Positions 34,252 through 41,959 of a stretch of 64,000 nucleotides of DNA are shown in pieces (the first letter of the stretch is position 1; every line of letters starts with the position of its first letter). The stretch comes from Kutzneria kofuensis (GTDB lineage: Bacteria; Actinomycetota; Actinomycetes; Mycobacteriales; Pseudonocardiaceae). Location: assembly GCF_014203355.1 (NCBI RefSeq), contig NZ_JACHIR010000003.1:124001-188000 (forward strand), in the 5' to 3' direction. A program made the translations under genes and the position numbers. The notes under the pieces are model-generated. The model had not been told where the DNA came from, did not search any database, and saw nothing but the letters and a program-made list of their open reading frames with translations.

Positions 34252-35283
34252 ATGACCAAGGTGCTGATCTCCGGCGCGAGCGTGGCGGGACCCGCCCTCG
34301 CCTACTTCCTGTCCGACCACTGCGACGTGACGGTGGTCGAGCGGGCGCCGGGGCCGCGGGACAGCGGCTGGGCGATCGACTTCCGCGGCGGCGCCATCGA
34401 GGTGCTGGCCGAACTCGGCATCTCGGACCGGATCCGCGACCTCGACACGAGGTCCCGCGGCACGGCGGTGCTGGACGCGGACGGCGCGAAGACCGGGGAG
34501 CTGCCGCGGGAGGTGTTCTCCGGTGAGCTGGAGGTGCCCAAGCGGGACCTGACCCGGCTGCTGCACGAGATCACCGCCGACCGTGCGCGCTACGTCTTCG
34601 ATGACTCGATTACGTCCATCCGGGACGGGCACGTCGAGTTCGAGCGGAGCCCGGCCGCCGACTACGACCTGGTGATCGGCGCGGACGGCGTGTACTCGAA
34701 GGTCCGCCGGCTGGCGTTCGGCCCGGCCGGCCTGCTCCACCTGGGCCTGTCCGGGGTCGGCTTCAGCATGCCCAACCACCTGGGCCTGGACCACAGTGGA
34801 CTGCTCTGGCAGCACGGCGGCGCGTTCGTCTACCTGTTCAGCGGCAACGATCCGGACCGTCTCACCGTGGGCCTGTCGTTCGGCACGGAGTCACCGGAAC
34901 TGGACCGGCGCTCCCGGGCCGAGCAGGAGCGGGCCACCCGGGCCGCGTTCGCCGGCCACGGCTGGGAGATCCCGCGCCTGCTGGACGCGATGGCCGCCGC
35001 CGACGACTTCTGGTTCGGCTCCACCTGCCAGGTGCGGATCGACTCCTGGTCGGCCGGCCGGGTCGCGCTGGTCGGCGACGCCGGCTACTGCGCCGCGCCG
35101 ACCAGCGGCATGGGCACCTCGCAGGCGTTGATCGGGGCGCGGACCCTGGCCCGGTGCCTCCTTGAGACCAGCGACCACGAGGCGGCGCTCGTGGCGTACG
35201 AGCGGGAACTCCGTCCGTACGTGGCCGAGAACCAGGAGATCGGCCGGGCGCACGCTCAGAGCTTGACGGCCACTCCCGCGTAA
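34252..35283 (+). CDS. FAD-dependent monooxygenase
   Basis: 343 residues. FAD fold ISGASVAGPALAYFL (6-20) with the GxSxxG variant, RGGAIEVLAELGI, DG motif GADGVYSKVRR and GD motif VGDAGYCAAPTSGMGTSQALIGA. It is closely similar in layout to the monooxygenase at 56087-57298, so the two are probably paralogues of the TetX/aklavinone-hydroxylase-like group. Regulation by the divergent TetR is expected. The substrate is unknown. It overlaps the following convergent methyltransferase gene by 28 nt. Confidence 0.9.
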   Translation: MTKVLISGASVAGPALAYFLSDHCDVTVVERAPGPRDSGWAIDFRGGAIEVLAELGISDRIRDLDTRSRGTAVLDADGAKTGELPREVFSGELEVPKRDLTRLLHEITADRARYVFDDSITSIRDGHVEFERSPAADYDLVIGADGVYSKVRRLAFGPAGLLHLGLSGVGFSMPNHLGLDHSGLLWQHGGAFVYLFSGNDPDRLTVGLSFGTESPELDRRSRAEQERATRAAFAGHGWEIPRLLDAMAAADDFWFGSTCQVRIDSWSAGRVALVGDAGYCAAPTSGMGTSQALIGARTLARCLLETSDHEAALVAYERELRPYVAENQEIGRAHAQSLTATPA

Positions 35284-36071
35284 CCGGCGTTCGGGATGTC
35301 GAACGCGGGGCCGGCGTCGGCCGGATCCGGGCGCCAGTCGGGAATCCACACCACGCCCGGCTCGACCAGTTCCCACCCGTGGAACAGGGCCTGAACCTCC
35401 CGCCGGGTGCGCAGCCGCACCTGGGCGACGGACTTCTCGTACATCTCGCGCGCCCCGTGCAGGTGCTCGTCCGGCATGTTCTCCGTGTTGGGGCTGCCGT
35501 GGGCGATCGCCAGCATGCTGCCGGGCGGCAGCGCCTCCCGGAACCTCGCCAGGATCCCGACCGGATCGTCCTCGTCCCGGATGAAGTGCAGGATCATGAT
35601 CAGCATGACCGCTACCGGCCGGTCGAGGTCCAGGGTGCCGCGCAGCTCCGGGCTGTCCAGGATCTCCACCGGGTCGCGCAGGTCGCCCCGCAGCACGGTG
35701 GTCGTCGGGTCGTCGCCCAGCATCTGCCGCGTGTGGCTGACGGCGACCGGATCGGTGTCCACGTACACCACCCGCGACTGCGGGTCGGCGGCGCGGGCGA
35801 TCTCGTGCACGTTGCCGACGGTCGGGATGCCGGAGCCGATGTCCAGGAACTGGGTCACGCCCGACGCGGCGCACATCCGCACCGCGCGGCGCAGGAACGC
35901 CCGGCTGGCCTGCGCCATCCGCGGCCCCTCCGGCATCAGCCGCAGCATCTGCTTGGCCACCTCGCGGTCCACCGCGAAGTTGTGCGAGCCGTCCAGGAAC
36001 CAGTCCCAGATGCGGCTGATGCTGGGCTGGTCGATGTCCACGTCCGGCGGCGCCCAGGCGGGTCGTTCCAT
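35256..36071 (-). CDS. SAM-dependent methyltransferase, DUF574 family
   Basis: 271 residues from the ATG at 36069-36071 with AGGGTGA upstream. Family hallmarks: N-terminal PDVDIDQPSISRIWDWFLDG, NFAVDRE, FLDIGSGIPTVGNVHEIA (SAM site, about 93-110) and VYVDTDPVAVSH. DUF574 methyltransferases are abundant in actinomycetes, often in several copies, with largely unknown substrates. A second copy lies at 50422 (similar start: ERPxWAPxDVDI). Confidence 0.9.
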   Translation of the reverse strand: MERPAWAPPDVDIDQPSISRIWDWFLDGSHNFAVDREVAKQMLRLMPEGPRMAQASRAFLRRAVRMCAASGVTQFLDIGSGIPTVGNVHEIARAADPQSRVVYVDTDPVAVSHTRQMLGDDPTTTVLRGDLRDPVEILDSPELRGTLDLDRPVAVMLIMILHFIRDEDDPVGILARFREALPPGSMLAIAHGSPNTENMPDEHLHGAREMYEKSVAQVRLRTRREVQALFHGWELVEPGVVWIPDWRPDPADAGPAFDIPNAGYAGVAVKL

Positions 36072-36106
36072 GACCGTCACCCTAGAACACCGCCGGACCC
36101 CGGTTG

Positions 36107-37279
36107 CTAACGATCGAACTCCGGGATCAGCTCGCCGATCAGCCGGATGCTGGTGTCCACCGCCTCGTCGGGGATGCTGCCGATCTGGTGCAGGCACATC
36201 AGCCGGTCGATGCCCAGGTCGGCGTAGGTGCTCAGCTTCTCCCGGCACGTCTCGGGGCTGCCGACGATCAGCGACTGCTGCGCGCTGAGCACCGTGAACA
36301 GCTCCTCCTCCGGCACGTCCTCGCCCTGCAGCACCCGGCCGATCAGCAGCTGGGCGTCGGTCGGGGCGTTGTCGATCTCGCCGCGCAGGAAGTCGCCGGT
36401 GAGCCCGCCGCCGTCGGGGGAGTCCAGCAGCTCCTGGTGGCGCTGCATGGTGGCGGCGAACTCGGTTGCCGCCTCGAAGAAGCGCAGCGCCGTCACGGTG
36501 TACCAGGCGGCGGCCGCGGCGGCGCCGTTGCGCATCGCCTGCTCGTCGGTCTCCGCGCAGTGCACGAACGTGAAGTAGCCGACCTGATTGTTCACGAACG
36601 AGCCCACCGGCTCGGTGCAGGCCTCGGCCGCCGCCCGGTACAGCTTGATCATTCGGCCGACCCGTTCCAGCGACTCCCACATGGTCGTGCCCAGCACGCC
36701 GACGCCGCGCCGGCCGGCGTCCTCGAACGACGTGGGGCTGGCCGCCGCCTGCCACAGCGGCGGGTGCGGCCGCTGCAGCGGCTTCGGTCCGATCGAGACG
36801 TTCTCGATCCGGTAGTTCTCGCTGTGGTAGGAGAAATCGTCGGTGGTCCACATCTTGGGGACCATCTCGAACGCCTCCTGCGTCTGCGCCCGGGCCTGCG
36901 CCGGCTCGATGCCGAACAGCCGCCACTCCGGGATGGTGGAGCGGGTCAGGCCCAGTTCGACGCGGCCGCCGCTGAGGTGGTCCAGCGTCGCCGCCCGCTC
37001 CGCCACCCGGATCGGGTGGTTGAACCGGCCGGGCGCCAGCACAGCGGAGTGGCCGATCCGGATCCGGTTGGTGTGCTGGGCGATCGCGGCCAGCACCAGT
37101 TCCGGCGCCGAGGACAGGCTGAACTCGCCGGCCCCGTGGTGCTCGACCTGCCACCAGCAGCCGTAGCCCAGCTCGTCGGCCAGCTTCGCCTGCTCGATGG
37201 CCCGCCGGAAGCGGTGCTGCTCGTGGCCCGGCGGCCACGGCCGGGGATTCTGGATCTCGTTGAACAGATCGATCTTCAC
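36107..37279 (-). CDS. LLM class flavin-dependent oxidoreductase (luciferase-like)
   Basis: 390 residues from a GTG at 37277-37279. Bacterial-luciferase TIM-barrel: KIDLFNEIQNPRPWPPGHE start, WWQVEHHGAG, NRIRIGHSAVLAP, RVAERAATLDHLSGGRVELGL and YRAAAE. It uses FMNH2 or F420 from a partner reductase and inserts oxygen into an unknown substrate. It is upstream of the DUF574 gene on the same strand with a 35-bp gap, so the two may form an operon. Confidence 0.92.
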   Translation of the reverse strand: MKIDLFNEIQNPRPWPPGHEQHRFRRAIEQAKLADELGYGCWWQVEHHGAGEFSLSSAPELVLAAIAQHTNRIRIGHSAVLAPGRFNHPIRVAERAATLDHLSGGRVELGLTRSTIPEWRLFGIEPAQARAQTQEAFEMVPKMWTTDDFSYHSENYRIENVSIGPKPLQRPHPPLWQAAASPTSFEDAGRRGVGVLGTTMWESLERVGRMIKLYRAAAEACTEPVGSFVNNQVGYFTFVHCAETDEQAMRNGAAAAAAWYTVTALRFFEAATEFAATMQRHQELLDSPDGGGLTGDFLRGEIDNAPTDAQLLIGRVLQGEDVPEEELFTVLSAQQSLIVGSPETCREKLSTYADLGIDRLMCLHQIGSIPDEAVDTSIRLIGELIPEFDR

Positions 37280-37557: not shown

Positions 37558-38388
37558 TTGTCGCCGGTCAACCTGCCTGTTGCCGCCGTTACGTGTGAGT
37601 CCCTGCGTCCGCTGCGTGACGGGTTCGACACGCCGCGTACCCGGACCGACGGCGGCCTCGTCAGCGACGACTCGGTCCTGCGCCGCTACTGCGCGCCCTG
37701 GCTGCCGATGGTGCTCGGCGGCTGGTCGGCGTACACCACGCTGGTCCTGGTGGACCACATGAGACAGTCCATTTCGATGGCGATGGCCCGTCGGCCCAAC
37801 TTCAACGAGTTCCGCCAACTCACGCGGGGCATGCTGATCGCCATCTTCGGTGACACCGAACAGGTTGAGGCCCAGCGCAAGGGCGCCTGGGAGGCGCACG
37901 ACCGGTTGCGTGGGATCGATGCGGACGGTCGCGAGTGGACGGCGAACGACCCGGAGCTGACCACCCGGGTGTACACCGTGCTGATCCGTCATCTGCTTGC
38001 CGCCCAGGAGAGGCTGATCGGCCCGCTCGATGAGTCCGATCGGGACGCCTACTGCGCGGACGCGGTGCGCACGGTCGGTCACGTGTTCGGCACAACCCGT
38101 GCTCTCCCCGTCACTTTCGCCGAACTGTCCACACAGTACGACCACATCGTGGCCGAGGAGCTGACCGTCACGCCGGAGGCGCTGGAGGTGTTCCGGGAGA
38201 ACCGGACGCTGTGCGTCAAGGGCGTGCCGATGGAGGACCTGGTGCGGGCCACCGCCGACCTGCTCGACCCGGAGGTGGCGGAGATCTTCGGCATCGACCG
38301 GTCACTGCCGGTCTGCTTCCCCCCGATCGATCTGGCCACGGTGACCGAGGACGACCTGCTGCCGCTGGCCTGCCTCAGCCGGCGGTAG
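37558..38388 (+). CDS. MpaB/DUF2236 family heme oxygenase, TTG start
   Basis: 276 residues. The TTG at 37558 is chosen because AAGAAGGAG stands 7 nt upstream. Family features are the RQLTRGMLIAIFGDTEQVEA block, the H-D-R segment EAHDRLRGIDADGREW, ELTTRVYTVLIRHLLAA and a later QYDHIVAEEL. Members (MpaB', rubber oxygenase Lcp) bind heme b and cleave or oxidise substrates with O2. The substrate here is unknown. It overlaps the FAD monooxygenase of the XRE-ImmA operon by 14 nt, convergent. Confidence 0.8.
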   Translation: MSPVNLPVAAVTCESLRPLRDGFDTPRTRTDGGLVSDDSVLRRYCAPWLPMVLGGWSAYTTLVLVDHMRQSISMAMARRPNFNEFRQLTRGMLIAIFGDTEQVEAQRKGAWEAHDRLRGIDADGREWTANDPELTTRVYTVLIRHLLAAQERLIGPLDESDRDAYCADAVRTVGHVFGTTRALPVTFAELSTQYDHIVAEELTVTPEALEVFRENRTLCVKGVPMEDLVRATADLLDPEVAEIFGIDRSLPVCFPPIDLATVTEDDLLPLACLSRR

Positions 38389-39547
38389 TGCGGTCGCTGT
38401 CCCAGTCGATGTGGTGCAGGTGCAGCCAGTCGACGTCGGGGTTGCGCGCGCGGCGGGCGACGGCCCGATCCCGCAGCAGCCGTCGCAACGGCCCGGGGAC
38501 GCGCGGCCCGAGCTTGCGGAACCCGGTGCGCACAACGCGTTCCACCCGTTCCCGCCGGAGCCGCTCGTAGGCGAGCAGGGCGGCAGTGGTGTCCGGATCG
38601 TCGCGCAGGCACTTGGCCAGCGTGACGGCGTCCTCGATGGCCATGGACGCACCCTGTGTGGTCGACGGTGAGGCGACGTGCAGCGCGTCGCCGACCAGAG
38701 TCATGCCGGCGCGGGACCAGGTCGGCAGGGAAGGCAGTTGGTAGCACGCGGTCGCGGTGAGTTGCTCGTCGGCCGTCGCCCGGATCGCCTGTACGGTGCC
38801 GATCCGGTCGCCGGCGAACAGATCGCCGAGCCGTTGTCGCAGCACGGCGGGGGAGACGCCGGCCAATTCCTGTTCGCCACAGGGAACATTGGCGAACCAC
38901 CACGTCTCGCCGTCCGGCGCGGTGATGTGCCCGCACGTGGCGCGGCGGCCGAAGTACATGTAGTAGCAATCCCGGTGGCTGGCCGGCAGCACGTCCCGGG
39001 CCGCGCCCATCGCGATGTTCCAGCCGGTGTAGGCGGGTTGCGGGGCGTTCGGGTCGATCAGGGTACGGGTCGTCGAGTGCACGCCGTCCGCGCCGATCAG
39101 CAGATCGCCGCCGGTGCGGGTGCCGTCGCCGAAGAACGCCGTCACGCTGCCGTGATGGCGGACGCCGACCAGCCGCTTGCCGTGCACGATCTCGACCCCG
39201 CGCCGCCGCGCCTCCTCGACGAGCACCCGGTACAGGTCGGCGCGGCGCATCGTGCGCGGGCCGTGCTCCGGATCGGGACTGGGGATGGTGAGCACGCCGA
39301 GCCGGCGGTCGTGGCCGTTGAGCATGCGCACCTCCTTGGAGGCGAACGACCGGTCGAGCACCAGGTGCTCGGCGTCGATCGCGCGCAGCGCGTCCAGGCC
39401 GTTGGCCATGATCGTCAGGAATGCGCCCCTGCCGTCGGCGCCGGTCGGGTGCGCCTCGTACACGGCGGCGTTCATGCCGGCATGGCGCAGCGCGATCGCT
39501 GTCGTCAGGCCGGAAATCCCGCCGCCGACGACCAGCACCCGGCTCAT
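38375..39547 (-). CDS. FAD-dependent monooxygenase, last gene of the XRE-ImmA operon
   Basis: 390 residues. FAD fold VLVVGGGISGLTTAIALRHAG (split 4-24), DG motif GADGVHSTTRTL, GD motif VGDALHVASPSTTQGASMAIED. The C-terminal tail is basic then acidic. Its ATG overlaps the stop of the upstream membrane protein as ATGA (39544-39547), so it is translationally coupled to that gene and to the peptidase and HTH genes before it. It therefore likely acts in the same pathway as the seven-helix protein. Confidence 0.9.
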   Translation of the reverse strand: MSRVLVVGGGISGLTTAIALRHAGMNAAVYEAHPTGADGRGAFLTIMANGLDALRAIDAEHLVLDRSFASKEVRMLNGHDRRLGVLTIPSPDPEHGPRTMRRADLYRVLVEEARRRGVEIVHGKRLVGVRHHGSVTAFFGDGTRTGGDLLIGADGVHSTTRTLIDPNAPQPAYTGWNIAMGAARDVLPASHRDCYYMYFGRRATCGHITAPDGETWWFANVPCGEQELAGVSPAVLRQRLGDLFAGDRIGTVQAIRATADEQLTATACYQLPSLPTWSRAGMTLVGDALHVASPSTTQGASMAIEDAVTLAKCLRDDPDTTAALLAYERLRRERVERVVRTGFRKLGPRVPGPLRRLLRDRAVARRARNPDVDWLHLHHIDWDSDRTTAG

Positions 39548-40632
39548 ACGCGCAGTTCCTGGGACAGTGCGACGAGTTCACGCACATCGGCTTCGAGGCC
39601 ACCATCGGCCGGCACCGCGACCGGTTGCGCCGCAACCACTTGGACTTCGCGAGGCTCGCCAAGGGCGCTGCGCAGCCACGCGGCGACGGCGGCCGGTTCG
39701 GCCGGGCAGTCGCCGGGCAGGCGGCCGCTGGCCCGCACGAGGCCGTCACGGCATTCGATGACACGGCGGTAGAAGCGGCGGTTGATGGCGCGCAGGCTGA
39801 GGGTGTCCCGCCAGGGGCTCGCCGGGGCGCGGCTGAGCGCGTCCTCGGGGAACGCCTCGTGCAACATGGTCCATAGTGGACGAAGCTGGTGGTAGTCGCG
39901 CAGGTGTCGCCACCAGACCCGGGCCGCCACCCAGCGCACGCGGGCCCCGGGGATGATGAAGCCGACCAGAACCACCAGATTGGCCATCAGCACAACGGGA
40001 GTCGGCAGCTCCAGCGCGATCGCCGTCTCCGGATCGGCCAGGCGGATCACCATCGAGACGGCGATCAGCACCGACCCGACGCCGATCACCGACAGCCCGG
40101 CCGACGCGGTCGTCAGCCCCCGTGCCAGCCAGCGCTGGGTGATCTTCGCGTGGCGGTGCATCCACACGATGCACGTGATGACGCCGTACACCGTGTAGAC
40201 GTTGGCGACAAAGCGAAACGCGTCCAGGGTGGCCCGCGGGTACTCGGCCGGCGACAGGTGCTGCGGCACAGTCGCGGCGAGCGTTCCCAGCACCGCCAAC
40301 GTGAACACGAGCCGGACGGCCTCACGCGCGGCCTGCTGCCAGGCCCGTTTCCCTTGCCCGGCCGAGAAGACGAACACACAGATCAGCGAGTACAGCATCG
40401 TCAGCAGCAGGGCCTCGCCCAGCCACATCAGCCAGATCGGGCCCGCGCCGGACACGCCGCCCTCGACGCCCACGCCGGCATGCGGCGTCACGGCGAACGC
40501 CGCCGCCGACAGCGCGAAACAGGCGACGACCCACCACAGCGAGATCCGCTTCGGGGTCCGGGCCAGCTGGGACGCCTTCCAGACGCCGATGCCGACGGCG
40601 GCCAGCACCTGCACCGTCATGTTCAGGTTCAC
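39544..40632 (-). CDS. MAB_1171c family membrane protein (putative transporter, seven helices)
   Basis: 362 residues from a GTG that overlaps the ImmA stop as GTGA (40629-40632). About seven membrane helices fill residues 5-240 (for example WWVVACFALSAAAFAV, EALLLTMLYSLICVFVF, VVLMANLVVLVGFIIPG). A cytoplasmic C-terminal domain of about 120 residues follows (RWVAARVWWRHL, RRFYRRVIECRDGL). The family is annotated as a putative transporter but the seven-helix plus cytoplasmic domain layout would also suit a receptor. Its usual neighbours are an HTH gene and an ImmA/IrrE peptidase, as here. Confidence 0.85.
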   Translation of the reverse strand: MNLNMTVQVLAAVGIGVWKASQLARTPKRISLWWVVACFALSAAAFAVTPHAGVGVEGGVSGAGPIWLMWLGEALLLTMLYSLICVFVFSAGQGKRAWQQAAREAVRLVFTLAVLGTLAATVPQHLSPAEYPRATLDAFRFVANVYTVYGVITCIVWMHRHAKITQRWLARGLTTASAGLSVIGVGSVLIAVSMVIRLADPETAIALELPTPVVLMANLVVLVGFIIPGARVRWVAARVWWRHLRDYHQLRPLWTMLHEAFPEDALSRAPASPWRDTLSLRAINRRFYRRVIECRDGLVRASGRLPGDCPAEPAAVAAWLRSALGEPREVQVVAAQPVAVPADGGLEADVRELVALSQELRV

Positions 40633-41174
40633 AGCCACCCCAGCCGGTCGCTCAGCGCGGCGTCGACACCTTCGGCCGCGTCGGAACTCTGTGGCAGCCG
40701 CATGGCGTCCAGGATCGACGCCCACTCCAGGATGATCGTGGCCACCGTCTCGGCCTCGCGCTCCTCCCGCTCCTCGTAGGCGGTGCGGCAGCGCAGCGCG
40801 TCCGGCGGCTCCGGCATCTCGCCGCCGGGGCCGGCCAGCATGTCGCACAGGTGGTCCGCGCCCTCGTCGGACGGGTGGTCGGCGAGGATGTGGCCGACCT
40901 CGTGCAGGATGATGTGCCGCTGGTGCGGCTTGGTGGTGTGCTCCTGGTAGACGATGAAGTCGGTGGTGCGGCCCTTGAACCACAGCCCGAACGGCCCGTC
41001 CGCCCACAGCGGGTAGGGGACCAGCTTGATCGGGCGGCCGCGCACCACGGCCAGCCGGGCGCAGAACTCGTGCACGTCCAGGGGCGGCTGCACGTCCAGC
41101 TCACGCAGCAGCCCGCGGCAGCGTTTGCGCAGCTCGCGCTCGCTGGTTCCGTTGTCGCGGCGGGCGAATCGCAT
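40629..41174 (-). CDS. ImmA/IrrE family metallopeptidase
   Basis: 181 residues. Zinc motif HEVGH at 91-95, with the downstream Glu-rich segment (about 132-150, YEEREEREAETVA) supplying the third ligand. The N-terminal helices (residues 10-40) match the family. ImmA/IrrE peptidases cleave or relieve HTH repressors, e.g. ImmR in ICEBs1 and DdrO in Deinococcus. The preceding HTH protein gene, 7 bp away, is the obvious partner. The stop overlaps the membrane-protein start (GTGA). Confidence 0.92.
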   Translation of the reverse strand: MRFARRDNGTSERELRKRCRGLLRELDVQPPLDVHEFCARLAVVRGRPIKLVPYPLWADGPFGLWFKGRTTDFIVYQEHTTKPHQRHIILHEVGHILADHPSDEGADHLCDMLAGPGGEMPEPPDALRCRTAYEEREEREAETVATIILEWASILDAMRLPQSSDAAEGVDAALSDRLGWL

Positions 41175-41181
41175 CGGCTCC

Positions 41182-41667
41182 TCAGCTCCCGGTACCCGAC
41201 AGCGCCTCGCCGCCGCCCGGGTCGATCACTTCGATCATCTCCACCAGCATGCGCAGCCGCTCCGGGCTCATCCGCCCGGCCCGCATCGCGATGGCCCGCA
41301 CCTGCTCGGCCCGTTCCGGCAGCGGCTGCGGGCTCGCCGGCGGTTCGTCGTCGCCCTCGGCCAGCAGCCAGGCGGCGGTCACCCGCGGCGCGCCCTCGGG
41401 CCGGTGGTCGTCGAAGAACTTGGCGATGGCCCGGACCTTCTCCATGGTCGGGTTCGCCTTGCCCTCACGGACCTTCCACAGCGTCACCCGCGAGATGGAG
41501 ATCGGATGTGAAGGATCCTCGGTGATCGCGGCGGCGACCTCGGGCGTGGAGTAGCGCACCGGCCGGCCACGCTTGTCGACGGCCTTCACGGTGGTGTTGA
41601 ACAGGTGATTGAGCCGGCGTGCCAACGCGAACTCCGGCGGGGCAGCCCCCTCGCTGCTGGCGTCCAC
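41182..41667 (-). CDS. Helix-turn-helix (XRE/EspR-like) regulator
   Basis: 161 residues from a GTG at 41665-41667 with AGGGAGGG upstream. The HTH covers about residues 38-95 (YSTPEVAAAITED, ISISRVTLWKVREGKANPTMEKVRAIAKFF), and the C-terminal tail is helical (RMSPERLRMLVEMIEVI). It resembles the EspR/SinR-like arrangement. It is the first gene of the four-gene operon with ImmA, the membrane protein and the FAD monooxygenase, and is the likely target of the peptidase. Confidence 0.88.
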   Translation of the reverse strand: MDASSEGAAPPEFALARRLNHLFNTTVKAVDKRGRPVRYSTPEVAAAITEDPSHPISISRVTLWKVREGKANPTMEKVRAIAKFFDDHRPEGAPRVTAAWLLAEGDDEPPASPQPLPERAEQVRAIAMRAGRMSPERLRMLVEMIEVIDPGGGEALSGTGS

Positions 41668-41959
41668 GGCAGCCCTCCCTTGTTGCGTGGAACGCCCCGA
41701 TGTTAACCGGAACTGCGCCAGTGGGGACAGCTGGTTGCGCCAAGCGGGTGATTCGGACCGGATTGTGTGACTCCCGTTAATTATAATGTAGCGTGAGCGG
41801 CGTTGGGTCACGCCCGGGTTCATCGCGGTGACGCGGAGTTCCCGGCGCCGCGCGGGTTCCCTGGGGGCGAACCCGCGCAGGGCCCCGCGCGCATCAGGCC
41901 GGTTGCTACGGGGGGTAGCCGCTGGTCGCTCTGTGGGGAGGGAGGCGCGCGGGGCCACC
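41668..41959. other. Promoter region of the XRE-ImmA operon
   Basis: 292 bp without a gene. It holds the AT-rich palindromic -10 island at 41777-41787 and, on the right, the 3' end region of the response-regulator gene. No clear terminator for the latter is visible. Confidence 0.35.
41780..41787 (-). promoter_or_regulatory. Symmetric ATTATAAT -10 island
   Basis: ATTATAAT is self-complementary and presents TATAAT on both strands (plus 41782-41787; minus 41785-41780). It is embedded in TTAATTATAA, the most AT-rich spot in this GC-rich stretch. On the minus strand it could serve the XRE-ImmA operon, starting about 105 bp upstream of the GTG; a plausible -35 is weak. Confidence 0.45.

Follow-up and report, generated by a model that had tools for sequence, protein, structure and literature searches.

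An EspR-type regulator, an M78 peptidase and a seven-helix membrane protein in a Kutzneria operon: a candidate receptor–protease switch and its bearing on EspR

Why should a regulator, a soluble peptidase, a membrane protein and a flavin enzyme be packed into a single operon? The question is raised by four genes on the minus strand, at positions 38375-41667 of a stretch of 64,000 nucleotides from Kutzneria kofuensis (the window, contig NZ_JACHIR010000003.1), in a genome of 10.4 Mb that its relatives place in the genus Kutzneria. They encode, in order, a helix-turn-helix (HTH) protein, an M78 peptidase, a MAB_1171c-family protein and a flavin adenine dinucleotide (FAD) monooxygenase. The first three recur together as a module, and we think it fairly probable that they form a receptor–protease–regulator switch controlling the enzyme gene. 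The main new result is the link between this module and EspR, the global virulence regulator of M. tuberculosis. The elements concerned are the following.

41182..41667, minus strand: EspR-type HTH regulator, 161 aa (amino acids) from a GTG start, with A-x-R-A in a C-terminal segment
40629..41174, minus strand: M78/IrrE-type zinc peptidase, 181 aa, with HEVGH at 91-95 and E138
39544..40632, minus strand: MAB_1171c-family seven-helix membrane protein with a cytosolic DUF6545 domain, 362 aa, the proposed receptor
38375..39547, minus strand: FAD-dependent monooxygenase of the FAD_binding_3 kind, 390 aa, the cargo enzyme
41698..41708, minus strand: operator-like motif 2, GGTTAACATCG, 30 bp before the HTH start
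41776..41790, minus strand: operator-like motif 1, TACATTATAATTAAC, conserved upstream

A recurrent module of three genes

The operon is tightly packed. The peptidase gene begins 7 bp past the HTH stop, a GTGA overlap joins it to the MAB_1171c gene, and an ATGA overlap joins the latter to the FAD monooxygenase gene; the four coupled genes described in a first-pass annotation of this DNA are real, coordinates included. Nor is their association due to chance, because eight of the nine strong peptidase-profile matches in the genome adjoin a MAB_1171c gene (a tenth match is weak), and because three other Kutzneria genomes (G002, G005 and G006) share the four genes and their order, with protein identities of 78-93%.

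Recurrence was assessed by a six-frame profile search in which the peptidase had to lie on the same strand and at most ~1.25 kb upstream of MAB_1171c, and the HTH within 4.5 kb, with profiles trained on loci of the same sets. Besides the genome's own loci, these sets comprised a named set (80 loci, the best of 134, in which relatives of the window's protein are over-represented) and a phylum sample of 20 loci, in 19 of which MAB_1171c was re-detected. The peptidase is found upstream of MAB_1171c at 8/9 own, 74/80 named and 15/20 phylum-sample loci, and the full triad, for which a co-oriented HTH must precede them, at 7/9, 57/80 and 6/20, respectively; an HTH is nearby in another orientation at one own, no named and four phylum loci. 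Among the 68 cases in the named set where peptidase and MAB_1171c were called as neighbours, the gap is zero or less in 56 and a 4-bp overlap in 41, and wherever both were called they are separate genes. HTH, peptidase and MAB_1171c are, in short, a recurrent module. Distances between the IrrE-type peptidase and MAB_1171c covary among eight paralogs of the window's genome (r 0.64, p 1e-4); in 51 named triads, without a correction for species kinship, the same holds for all three pairs (r 0.68-0.87).

Other arrangements were also seen. A divergent locus (L161, 7868-11541) combines an HTH, an HTH-peptidase fusion and MAB_1171c with a luciferase-like (LLM) oxidoreductase as the fourth gene. In the window's genome, EspR-type HTHs and one peptidase of the subfamily also occur apart from any MAB_1171c gene over the cut-off (G000:C1:2776451, C1:3524836 and C1:4609803), and at C2:488819-489738 two HTH matches lie together with a weak peptidase match.

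The regulator and EspR

Taken alone, the window's HTH protein scores 14.2 bits against Pfam, below the cut-off of 23. A profile of 16 HTHs (the window's included) matches the EspR chains 3r1f, 3qf3 and 4ndw at E ~1e-28 from position 6 to 141 of 147, nearly end to end through the HTH and the C-terminal domain, and by this homology over both domains the regulator may be placed in the EspR family. A82, F84, F85, A127, R129 and A130 are invariant in 16 relatives, and A-x-R-[ATS] past residue 80 is present in 71 of the 77 HTHs near a peptidase gene, against 12.4 in shuffles. In the searches made, the protein appears closer to EspR, and more weakly to CapH, than to ImmR.

Two motifs ahead of the HTH gene are shared by five Kutzneria triads. 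They lie 26-67 bp apart in the five genomes, a spacing compatible, and we would say no more, with a dimer of dimers bridging DNA sites as EspR does. GGTTAACATCG, which includes TAACAT, a possible -10 element, occurs in a single copy, at this promoter, in each of four Kutzneria genomes, where chance alone would give about one copy per genome; TACATTATAATTAAC gives the same genomic picture from a pattern that was written to fit these sites, and its one further place with two mismatches (L144) was taken as chance. Upstream of other triads, half-sites of the CAGTTGA/CAGTGGA type are found in 30/69 regions, often near -80 or -115, and CAGTTGA itself in 16/57 against 0.95 in shuffles. The likeness is to the espR promoter, which carries CAGCAAA-16-TTTGCTC according to PMC3315491; the CAG-containing half-sites of the triads occur in both orientations.

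EspR has a neighbourhood of its own in the genus that we sampled, which we take to be Mycobacterium; by a count of the alignment, the EspR of this genus is ~81% identical to the M. tuberculosis chain. In two mycobacterial-type genomes espR faces a MAB-IrrE pair. Across 118 such genomes EspR was found in 117 and MAB_1171c in 62, and in 60 of these 62 the MAB gene is convergent with espR at 391 bp or less (in one it lies 1.6 kb off, in one on another contig). From the 117 genomes 102 espR loci were fetched, 52 with the pair (L182 5340-7416, L184-L194 and L245-L284) and 50 without it (L195-L244). At all 50 of the latter, the match to a 218-aa protein starts 72-209 nt from espR, and the gene of this protein otherwise sits beyond the pair; tblastn found no trace of the pair at these 50 loci at E 1e-6, nor at the first ten of them at E 0.01.

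EspR differs between the two groups in its C-terminal part. Residues 1-82, the HTH, are 94.7% identical within each group, whereas residues 83-131 are 87.6% identical with the pair and 67.0% without it, and the segment 100-112 is 94.5% against 66.1%; AARTVGLS is read at 50/52 loci with the pair and at 0/50 without. At a synonymous divergence of 0.2-0.3, nonsynonymous change in the HTH amounts to 0.043 with the pair and 0.037 without, and in the segment to 0.049 and 0.354, respectively. These sequences point to a relaxed constraint specific to the C-terminal domain of EspR, though one that arose in only one or two events. The segment of M. tuberculosis EspR is of the type of the group without the pair. 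Since triads with a like segment exist in other actinobacteria, a loss of the pair in the espR lineage seems likelier than a gain, and the EspR of tuberculosis may once have had a receptor–peptidase controller. From there a wider picture can be drawn, which we find almost as easy to believe as to doubt: the EspR family would be made up of actinomycete regulators working under a receptor–peptidase pair, which about half of the mycobacterial-type genomes would have kept and the M. tuberculosis lineage would have lost, freeing the C-terminus of EspR; the Kutzneria operon would be a self-contained version, one of several in its genome, most with a receptor, a peptidase and cargo of their own.

Several results caution against going further. 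The status of the pair changes only about twice on a tree of 97 rows, which reduces the covariation to one or two events, and an independent-pairs test has too few pairs to be significant. The proteins compared are distant: the window's HTH alone has no match in the PDB at E 0.1 (phmmer) and is only 29% identical to mycobacterial EspR (BLASTP, E 9e-6), in an alignment that runs through the A-x-R segment; the mycobacterial peptidase is 25% identical to the window's (BLASTP, E 4e-4), and the mycobacterial MAB protein is 23% identical over part of its length (BLASTP, E 0.003) and scores 42.6 bits against NF042915, whose cut-off is 100. Finally, reports describe M. tuberculosis EspR as an activator, and as a nucleoid protein that occupies hundreds of sites (PMC3315491, in excerpt), and repression is therefore not given. 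Neither those excerpts nor the matches listed from the open-licence PMC literature name a peptidase or receptor partner of EspR.

Peptidase, membrane protein and a possible switch

The peptidase scores 19.2 bits against PF06114, below the gathering cut-off of 22, and 30 of the 38 aligned relatives match this family at E <= 0.01. H91, E92, H95 and E138 are invariant in 16 and in 38 sequences, E138 being the downstream Glu that we take to be a zinc ligand. When the structural model (pLDDT, the predicted confidence, 76) was compared with the PDB by Foldseek, the top two matches were 8sln (PprI) and 3dte (IrrE), at E 2.2e-3 and 2.6e-3, with probability 1.00 and TM-scores of 0.43-0.44; none fell below E 0.001. 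Fold and active-site motif mark this as an M78/IrrE-type peptidase, with sequence scores that are marginal. In the model, helices alone follow residue 80, and the 181 aa hold no GAF-like sensor domain; activation of PprI by single-stranded DNA (ssDNA) requires such a domain at its C-terminus (PMC10904395, in excerpt), so that the sensor seems to be missing in cis. The first-pass annotation had likened the first two genes to ImmR/ImmA and DdrO/IrrE, and this stands for the fold and motif of the peptidase, but not for the regulator, which is nearer to EspR, nor for the GAF-like domain.

These data also bear on the idea of a DNA-damage switch similar to CapH-CapP, in which ssDNA or metal/redox stress would trigger the peptidase, the HTH protein would be cleaved, and membrane protein and enzyme would be the released effectors. 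The sole PADLOC matches of the HTH protein and the peptidase are indeed capH (E 1.6e-6) and capP (E 2.8e-4), the 16-HTH profile matches chain 7t5u, presumably CapH, at E 2.5e-4, and a DNA ligase stands behind the triad in 17 loci, mostly of Lentzea. We nevertheless consider this idea unlikely, as the peptidase has no GAF-like domain of the kind that PprI needs for ssDNA, the MAB_1171c gene is tied to that of the peptidase and varies far less than the cargo does, and the identified cargo is mostly metabolic and not defensive. Anti-phage defence was rejected as an explanation, the capH and capP matches being weak, as is a desaturase-named PADLOC match of the FAD protein.

The third protein matches NF042915 over its full length (237 bits, cut-off 100), and its DUF6545 domain passes the Pfam cut-off; nine family members exceed the NF042915 cut-off in the window's genome. 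An AlphaFold2 model built from 59 sequences (pLDDT 88) has seven long helices followed by a helical C-terminal domain, as the first-pass annotation had anticipated, and the distribution of charges (positive-inside) indicates an external N-terminus and a cytosolic C-terminal domain. Conservation is concentrated in this cytosolic part: 19 of the 22 invariant columns in the 59 sequences fall from G224 on, mean entropy is 0.96 in the cytosolic stretch 233-304 against 1.84 in the transmembrane helices, and the nine paralogs of the genome share a mean identity of 35% in the former and 19% in the latter. That the membrane half varies while the cytosolic half stays constant suggests a receptor family rather than a transporter. 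Together with the topology and the 4-bp coupling to the peptidase gene, it favours the receptor role raised in the first-pass annotation. At L169, L175 and L176 a tandem pair of MAB_1171c genes follows a single peptidase gene, and at L176 a protein weakly matching the FAD profile comes after the pair.

That MAB_1171c might instead transport the compound of the enzyme, while the HTH protein and the peptidase form an ordinary local switch sensing the compound inside the cell, is suggested by the NCBIfam name of NF042915 and by an M. abscessus MAB_1171c mutant that makes about half the biofilm, discussed as a matter of transport in PMC8707978. The excerpts of that paper contain no transport assay of MAB_1171c, however. 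The cytosolic domain is better conserved than the membrane part, no transporter was among the 50 Foldseek matches listed of 617 for the model, and MAB_1171c stays with the peptidase even at the named loci where no HTH was detected; we think that transport is quite improbable. Nearly all of the 50 matches listed are G-protein-coupled receptors (GPCRs), with TM-scores up to ~0.5, which we take as a generic seven-helix resemblance.

We would therefore return to the receptor–protease–regulator switch. The seven-helix protein probably controls a protease acting on a regulator of the EspR kind, and the sequence of events could be as follows. The HTH protein would bind several operator sites ahead of its own gene and set the expression of the operon; the variable membrane half of MAB_1171c would sense a hydrophobic or small ligand, while its conserved cytosolic DUF6545 domain would hold and gate the soluble peptidase. 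On signal, the peptidase would clip, or otherwise act on, the A-x-R-A segment in the C-terminal dimerisation domain of the regulator, cooperative DNA binding would be lost, and the operon, with its enzyme gene, would be switched, by relief of repression more plausibly than by loss of activation. The enzyme, here a FAD hydroxylase and elsewhere others, would most likely alter or make the sensed compound. What is known of related proteins accords with such a step: EspR that lacks its last 10 residues still binds DNA but can no longer form dimers or activate (PMC3315491), and the cut in DdrO falls within a loop of the C-terminal domain through which it dimerises (PMC10904395, both in excerpt). 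A peptidase acting on A-x-R-A would switch a regulator of this kind while its HTH was retained. The regulator and the peptidase as a switch, and the earlier model for the first three genes in general, look largely plausible to us; that the oxygenase modifies the sensed compound is a guess.

The switch has to be weighed against other results as well. Seventeen of the 80 named loci have the peptidase and MAB_1171c without a detected HTH, and six have MAB_1171c alone. Among the paralogs of the window's genome, covariation of HTH and MAB_1171c is not significant (r 0.10, p 0.36) and that of HTH and peptidase is weak (r 0.35, p 0.08). The GPCR-like matches are weak, the best at E 0.08, and ligand sensing, gating, cleavage and the role of the enzyme are inferences. 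The covariation data would suit binding as well as cutting, and in the own paralogs the covariation of peptidase and MAB_1171c exceeds that of either with the HTH; both facts are in keeping with a scheme in which nothing is cut, and the MAB protein and the IrrE-like protein bind the C-terminal segment to tether or titrate the regulator at the membrane. Binding alone, however, does not demand metal ligands that are invariant in 38 relatives, and we regard this scheme as very unlikely.

Cargo, neighbours and known systems

The fourth gene was predicted to encode a flavin oxygenase, rightly so: it scores 80 bits against FAD_binding_3, for a Pfam cut-off of 22. The protein has GxGxxG at 8, DG at 154 and GD at 286, among several DG/GD, which we take to be the motifs of group A flavin monooxygenases, and it would accordingly belong to that group. 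The association with the triad is looser than the annotation implied. Of the 80 named loci, 12 have a FAD monooxygenase gene as the next one behind MAB_1171c (same strand, at most 200 bp away) and 40 have another gene there; at the rest the next gene is convergent (19) or more than 200 bp away (6), no MAB_1171c was called (2) or the contig ends (1). That the four genes are rarely together speaks against a fixed fourth gene, not against the triad.

The FAD enzyme is thus an exchangeable cargo. Of the genes other than FAD that occupy the first two positions behind MAB_1171c, 18 form a cluster of amidohydrolases (Pfam run on three), and two clusters of 17 correspond to an ATP-dependent DNA ligase and a UPF0029 protein (Pfam run on one each), which stand behind the triad in 17 loci, mostly of the Lentzea type (e.g. 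L091, 9127-10787). Own and phylum-sample loci add a P450, a squalene/phytoene synthase, an NAD-dependent epimerase-like protein and an amidase, with an alpha/beta hydrolase between the HTH and peptidase genes; L178 has one more FAD protein just over the cut-off, that of L174 falls below it, and those of L169 and L172 match nothing. At L049 (5939-8438; G000:C1 near 6.687 Mb) a squalene/phytoene synthase follows the peptidase and MAB_1171c genes with a 4-bp overlap, and the HTH is convergent.

Could the FAD gene then be a hitch-hiker that profits from a good promoter and has nothing to do with the ligand of the receptor? The low count behind MAB_1171c agrees with this, as do FAD paralogs (39-50% identity) elsewhere in the genome without MAB_1171c and several gains or losses of the gene: its linkage to MAB_1171c changes seven times on a tree, at least four of them forced, which also counts against the proposed switch. 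(The tree holds 38 of 44 FAD proteins, six same-genome duplicates having been dropped and L066 relabelled as linked; its 18 unlinked rows come from 20 hand-picked places, two of which turned out to be linked.) On the other side, the 4-bp coupling of MAB_1171c and FAD genes is found in several genera, the other identified cargo is again mostly small-molecule chemistry, and a natural split in K. buriramensis leaves the FAD gene with an adjacent HTH and operator motif. We think the hitch-hiker rather unlikely.

In K. buriramensis a triad without the FAD gene (L054) exists beside a separate HTH-FAD locus (L145) that is syntenic to the window, in the order response regulator, RibD_C protein, HTH, 7 bp, FAD, LLM; no peptidase, MAB_1171c or MpaB is present at the window-syntenic place. 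The HTH of L145 (10000-10353) is 117 aa long and ends before the A-x-R-A segment. Both genus motifs precede it, and GGTTAACATCG occurs twice in this genome, before the relocated triad and before HTH-FAD. A single deletion could account for both losses, and this is hence one observation in one genome. As the operator motif has been kept, the FAD gene seems still to be within reach of the regulator after the split.

The operon is flanked by two other genes of interest.

37558..38388, plus strand: MpaB/Lcp-type oxygenase, convergent, start uncertain (37558 or 37660)
36107..37279, minus strand: luciferase-like (LLM) flavin oxidoreductase, syntenic with the FAD gene in Kutzneria, Pfam-checked

The convergent MpaB neighbour named in the annotation is genuine (PF09995, 79.5 bits), and its 3' end overlaps that of the FAD gene by 14 bp. 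The three Kutzneria genomes with the operon carry both flanking genes alongside. We dropped MpaB as a fifth member because it adjoins the FAD gene in Kutzneria only, in three of four relatives with an orthologous FAD gene. Beside the operon, 34252-37279 holds the LLM oxidoreductase and two further genes, syntenic in relatives, which we read from the sequence as a second FAD-type gene and an S-adenosylmethionine-dependent methyltransferase-like gene. A PADLOC run on five proteins found no defence operon beside the triad, the neighbours being FAD, MpaB, LLM and a response regulator, and the RNA-feature search gave no tRNA or Rfam matches. A mobile-element reading was set aside, given the synteny of the operon in Kutzneria; relatives of window protein P0003 were absent from phage records at E 1e-3, and the 13 plasmid records that encode one are all actinobacterial.

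If the switch is real, actinobacteria would possess a recurrent form of transmembrane signalling in which a seven-helix protein works through a soluble peptidase on an EspR-type regulator; none of the matches listed from the open-licence PMC literature describes it. DUF6545/MAB_1171c proteins would gain a testable role, the cargo enzyme beside the receptor would give a handle on ligands, and the control of EspR would become approachable, since half of the sampled genomes have the pair next to espR, and its presence predicts where control would act, at segment 100-112.

How does this module compare with systems already described? In the searches made EspR is the nearer relative of its regulator, yet EspR is reported to be a nucleoid protein with hundreds of sites, whereas the Kutzneria motif has one site per genome. 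CapH-CapP is alike in that an HTH repressor and an M78 peptidase control an adjacent operon (PMC10904395, in excerpt). It is unlike the Kutzneria operon in that CapP is ssDNA-activated and in that the latter has an overlapping membrane-protein gene and belongs to a family with mostly metabolic cargo. DdrO-IrrE/PprI of Deinococcus and ImmR-ImmA of ICEBs1 share the peptidase fold and active-site motif, and in DdrO the target is likewise the C-terminal dimerisation domain (PMC10904395, in excerpt); here the regulator is closer to EspR, a membrane partner stands beside a peptidase without a GAF domain, and the searches made gave no sign of a mobile element around the operon. With the NF042915 (DUF6545) family the match is full-length, but transport appears there as a name only, and the receptor role is what we propose here.

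The proposed logic is comparable to that of BlaR1-BlaI-BlaZ, with a membrane receptor, an HExxH protease, an HTH regulator and an enzyme acting on the sensed compound; BlaR1 joins receptor and protease in one protein, whereas the Kutzneria operon would divide these tasks between two proteins of other families.

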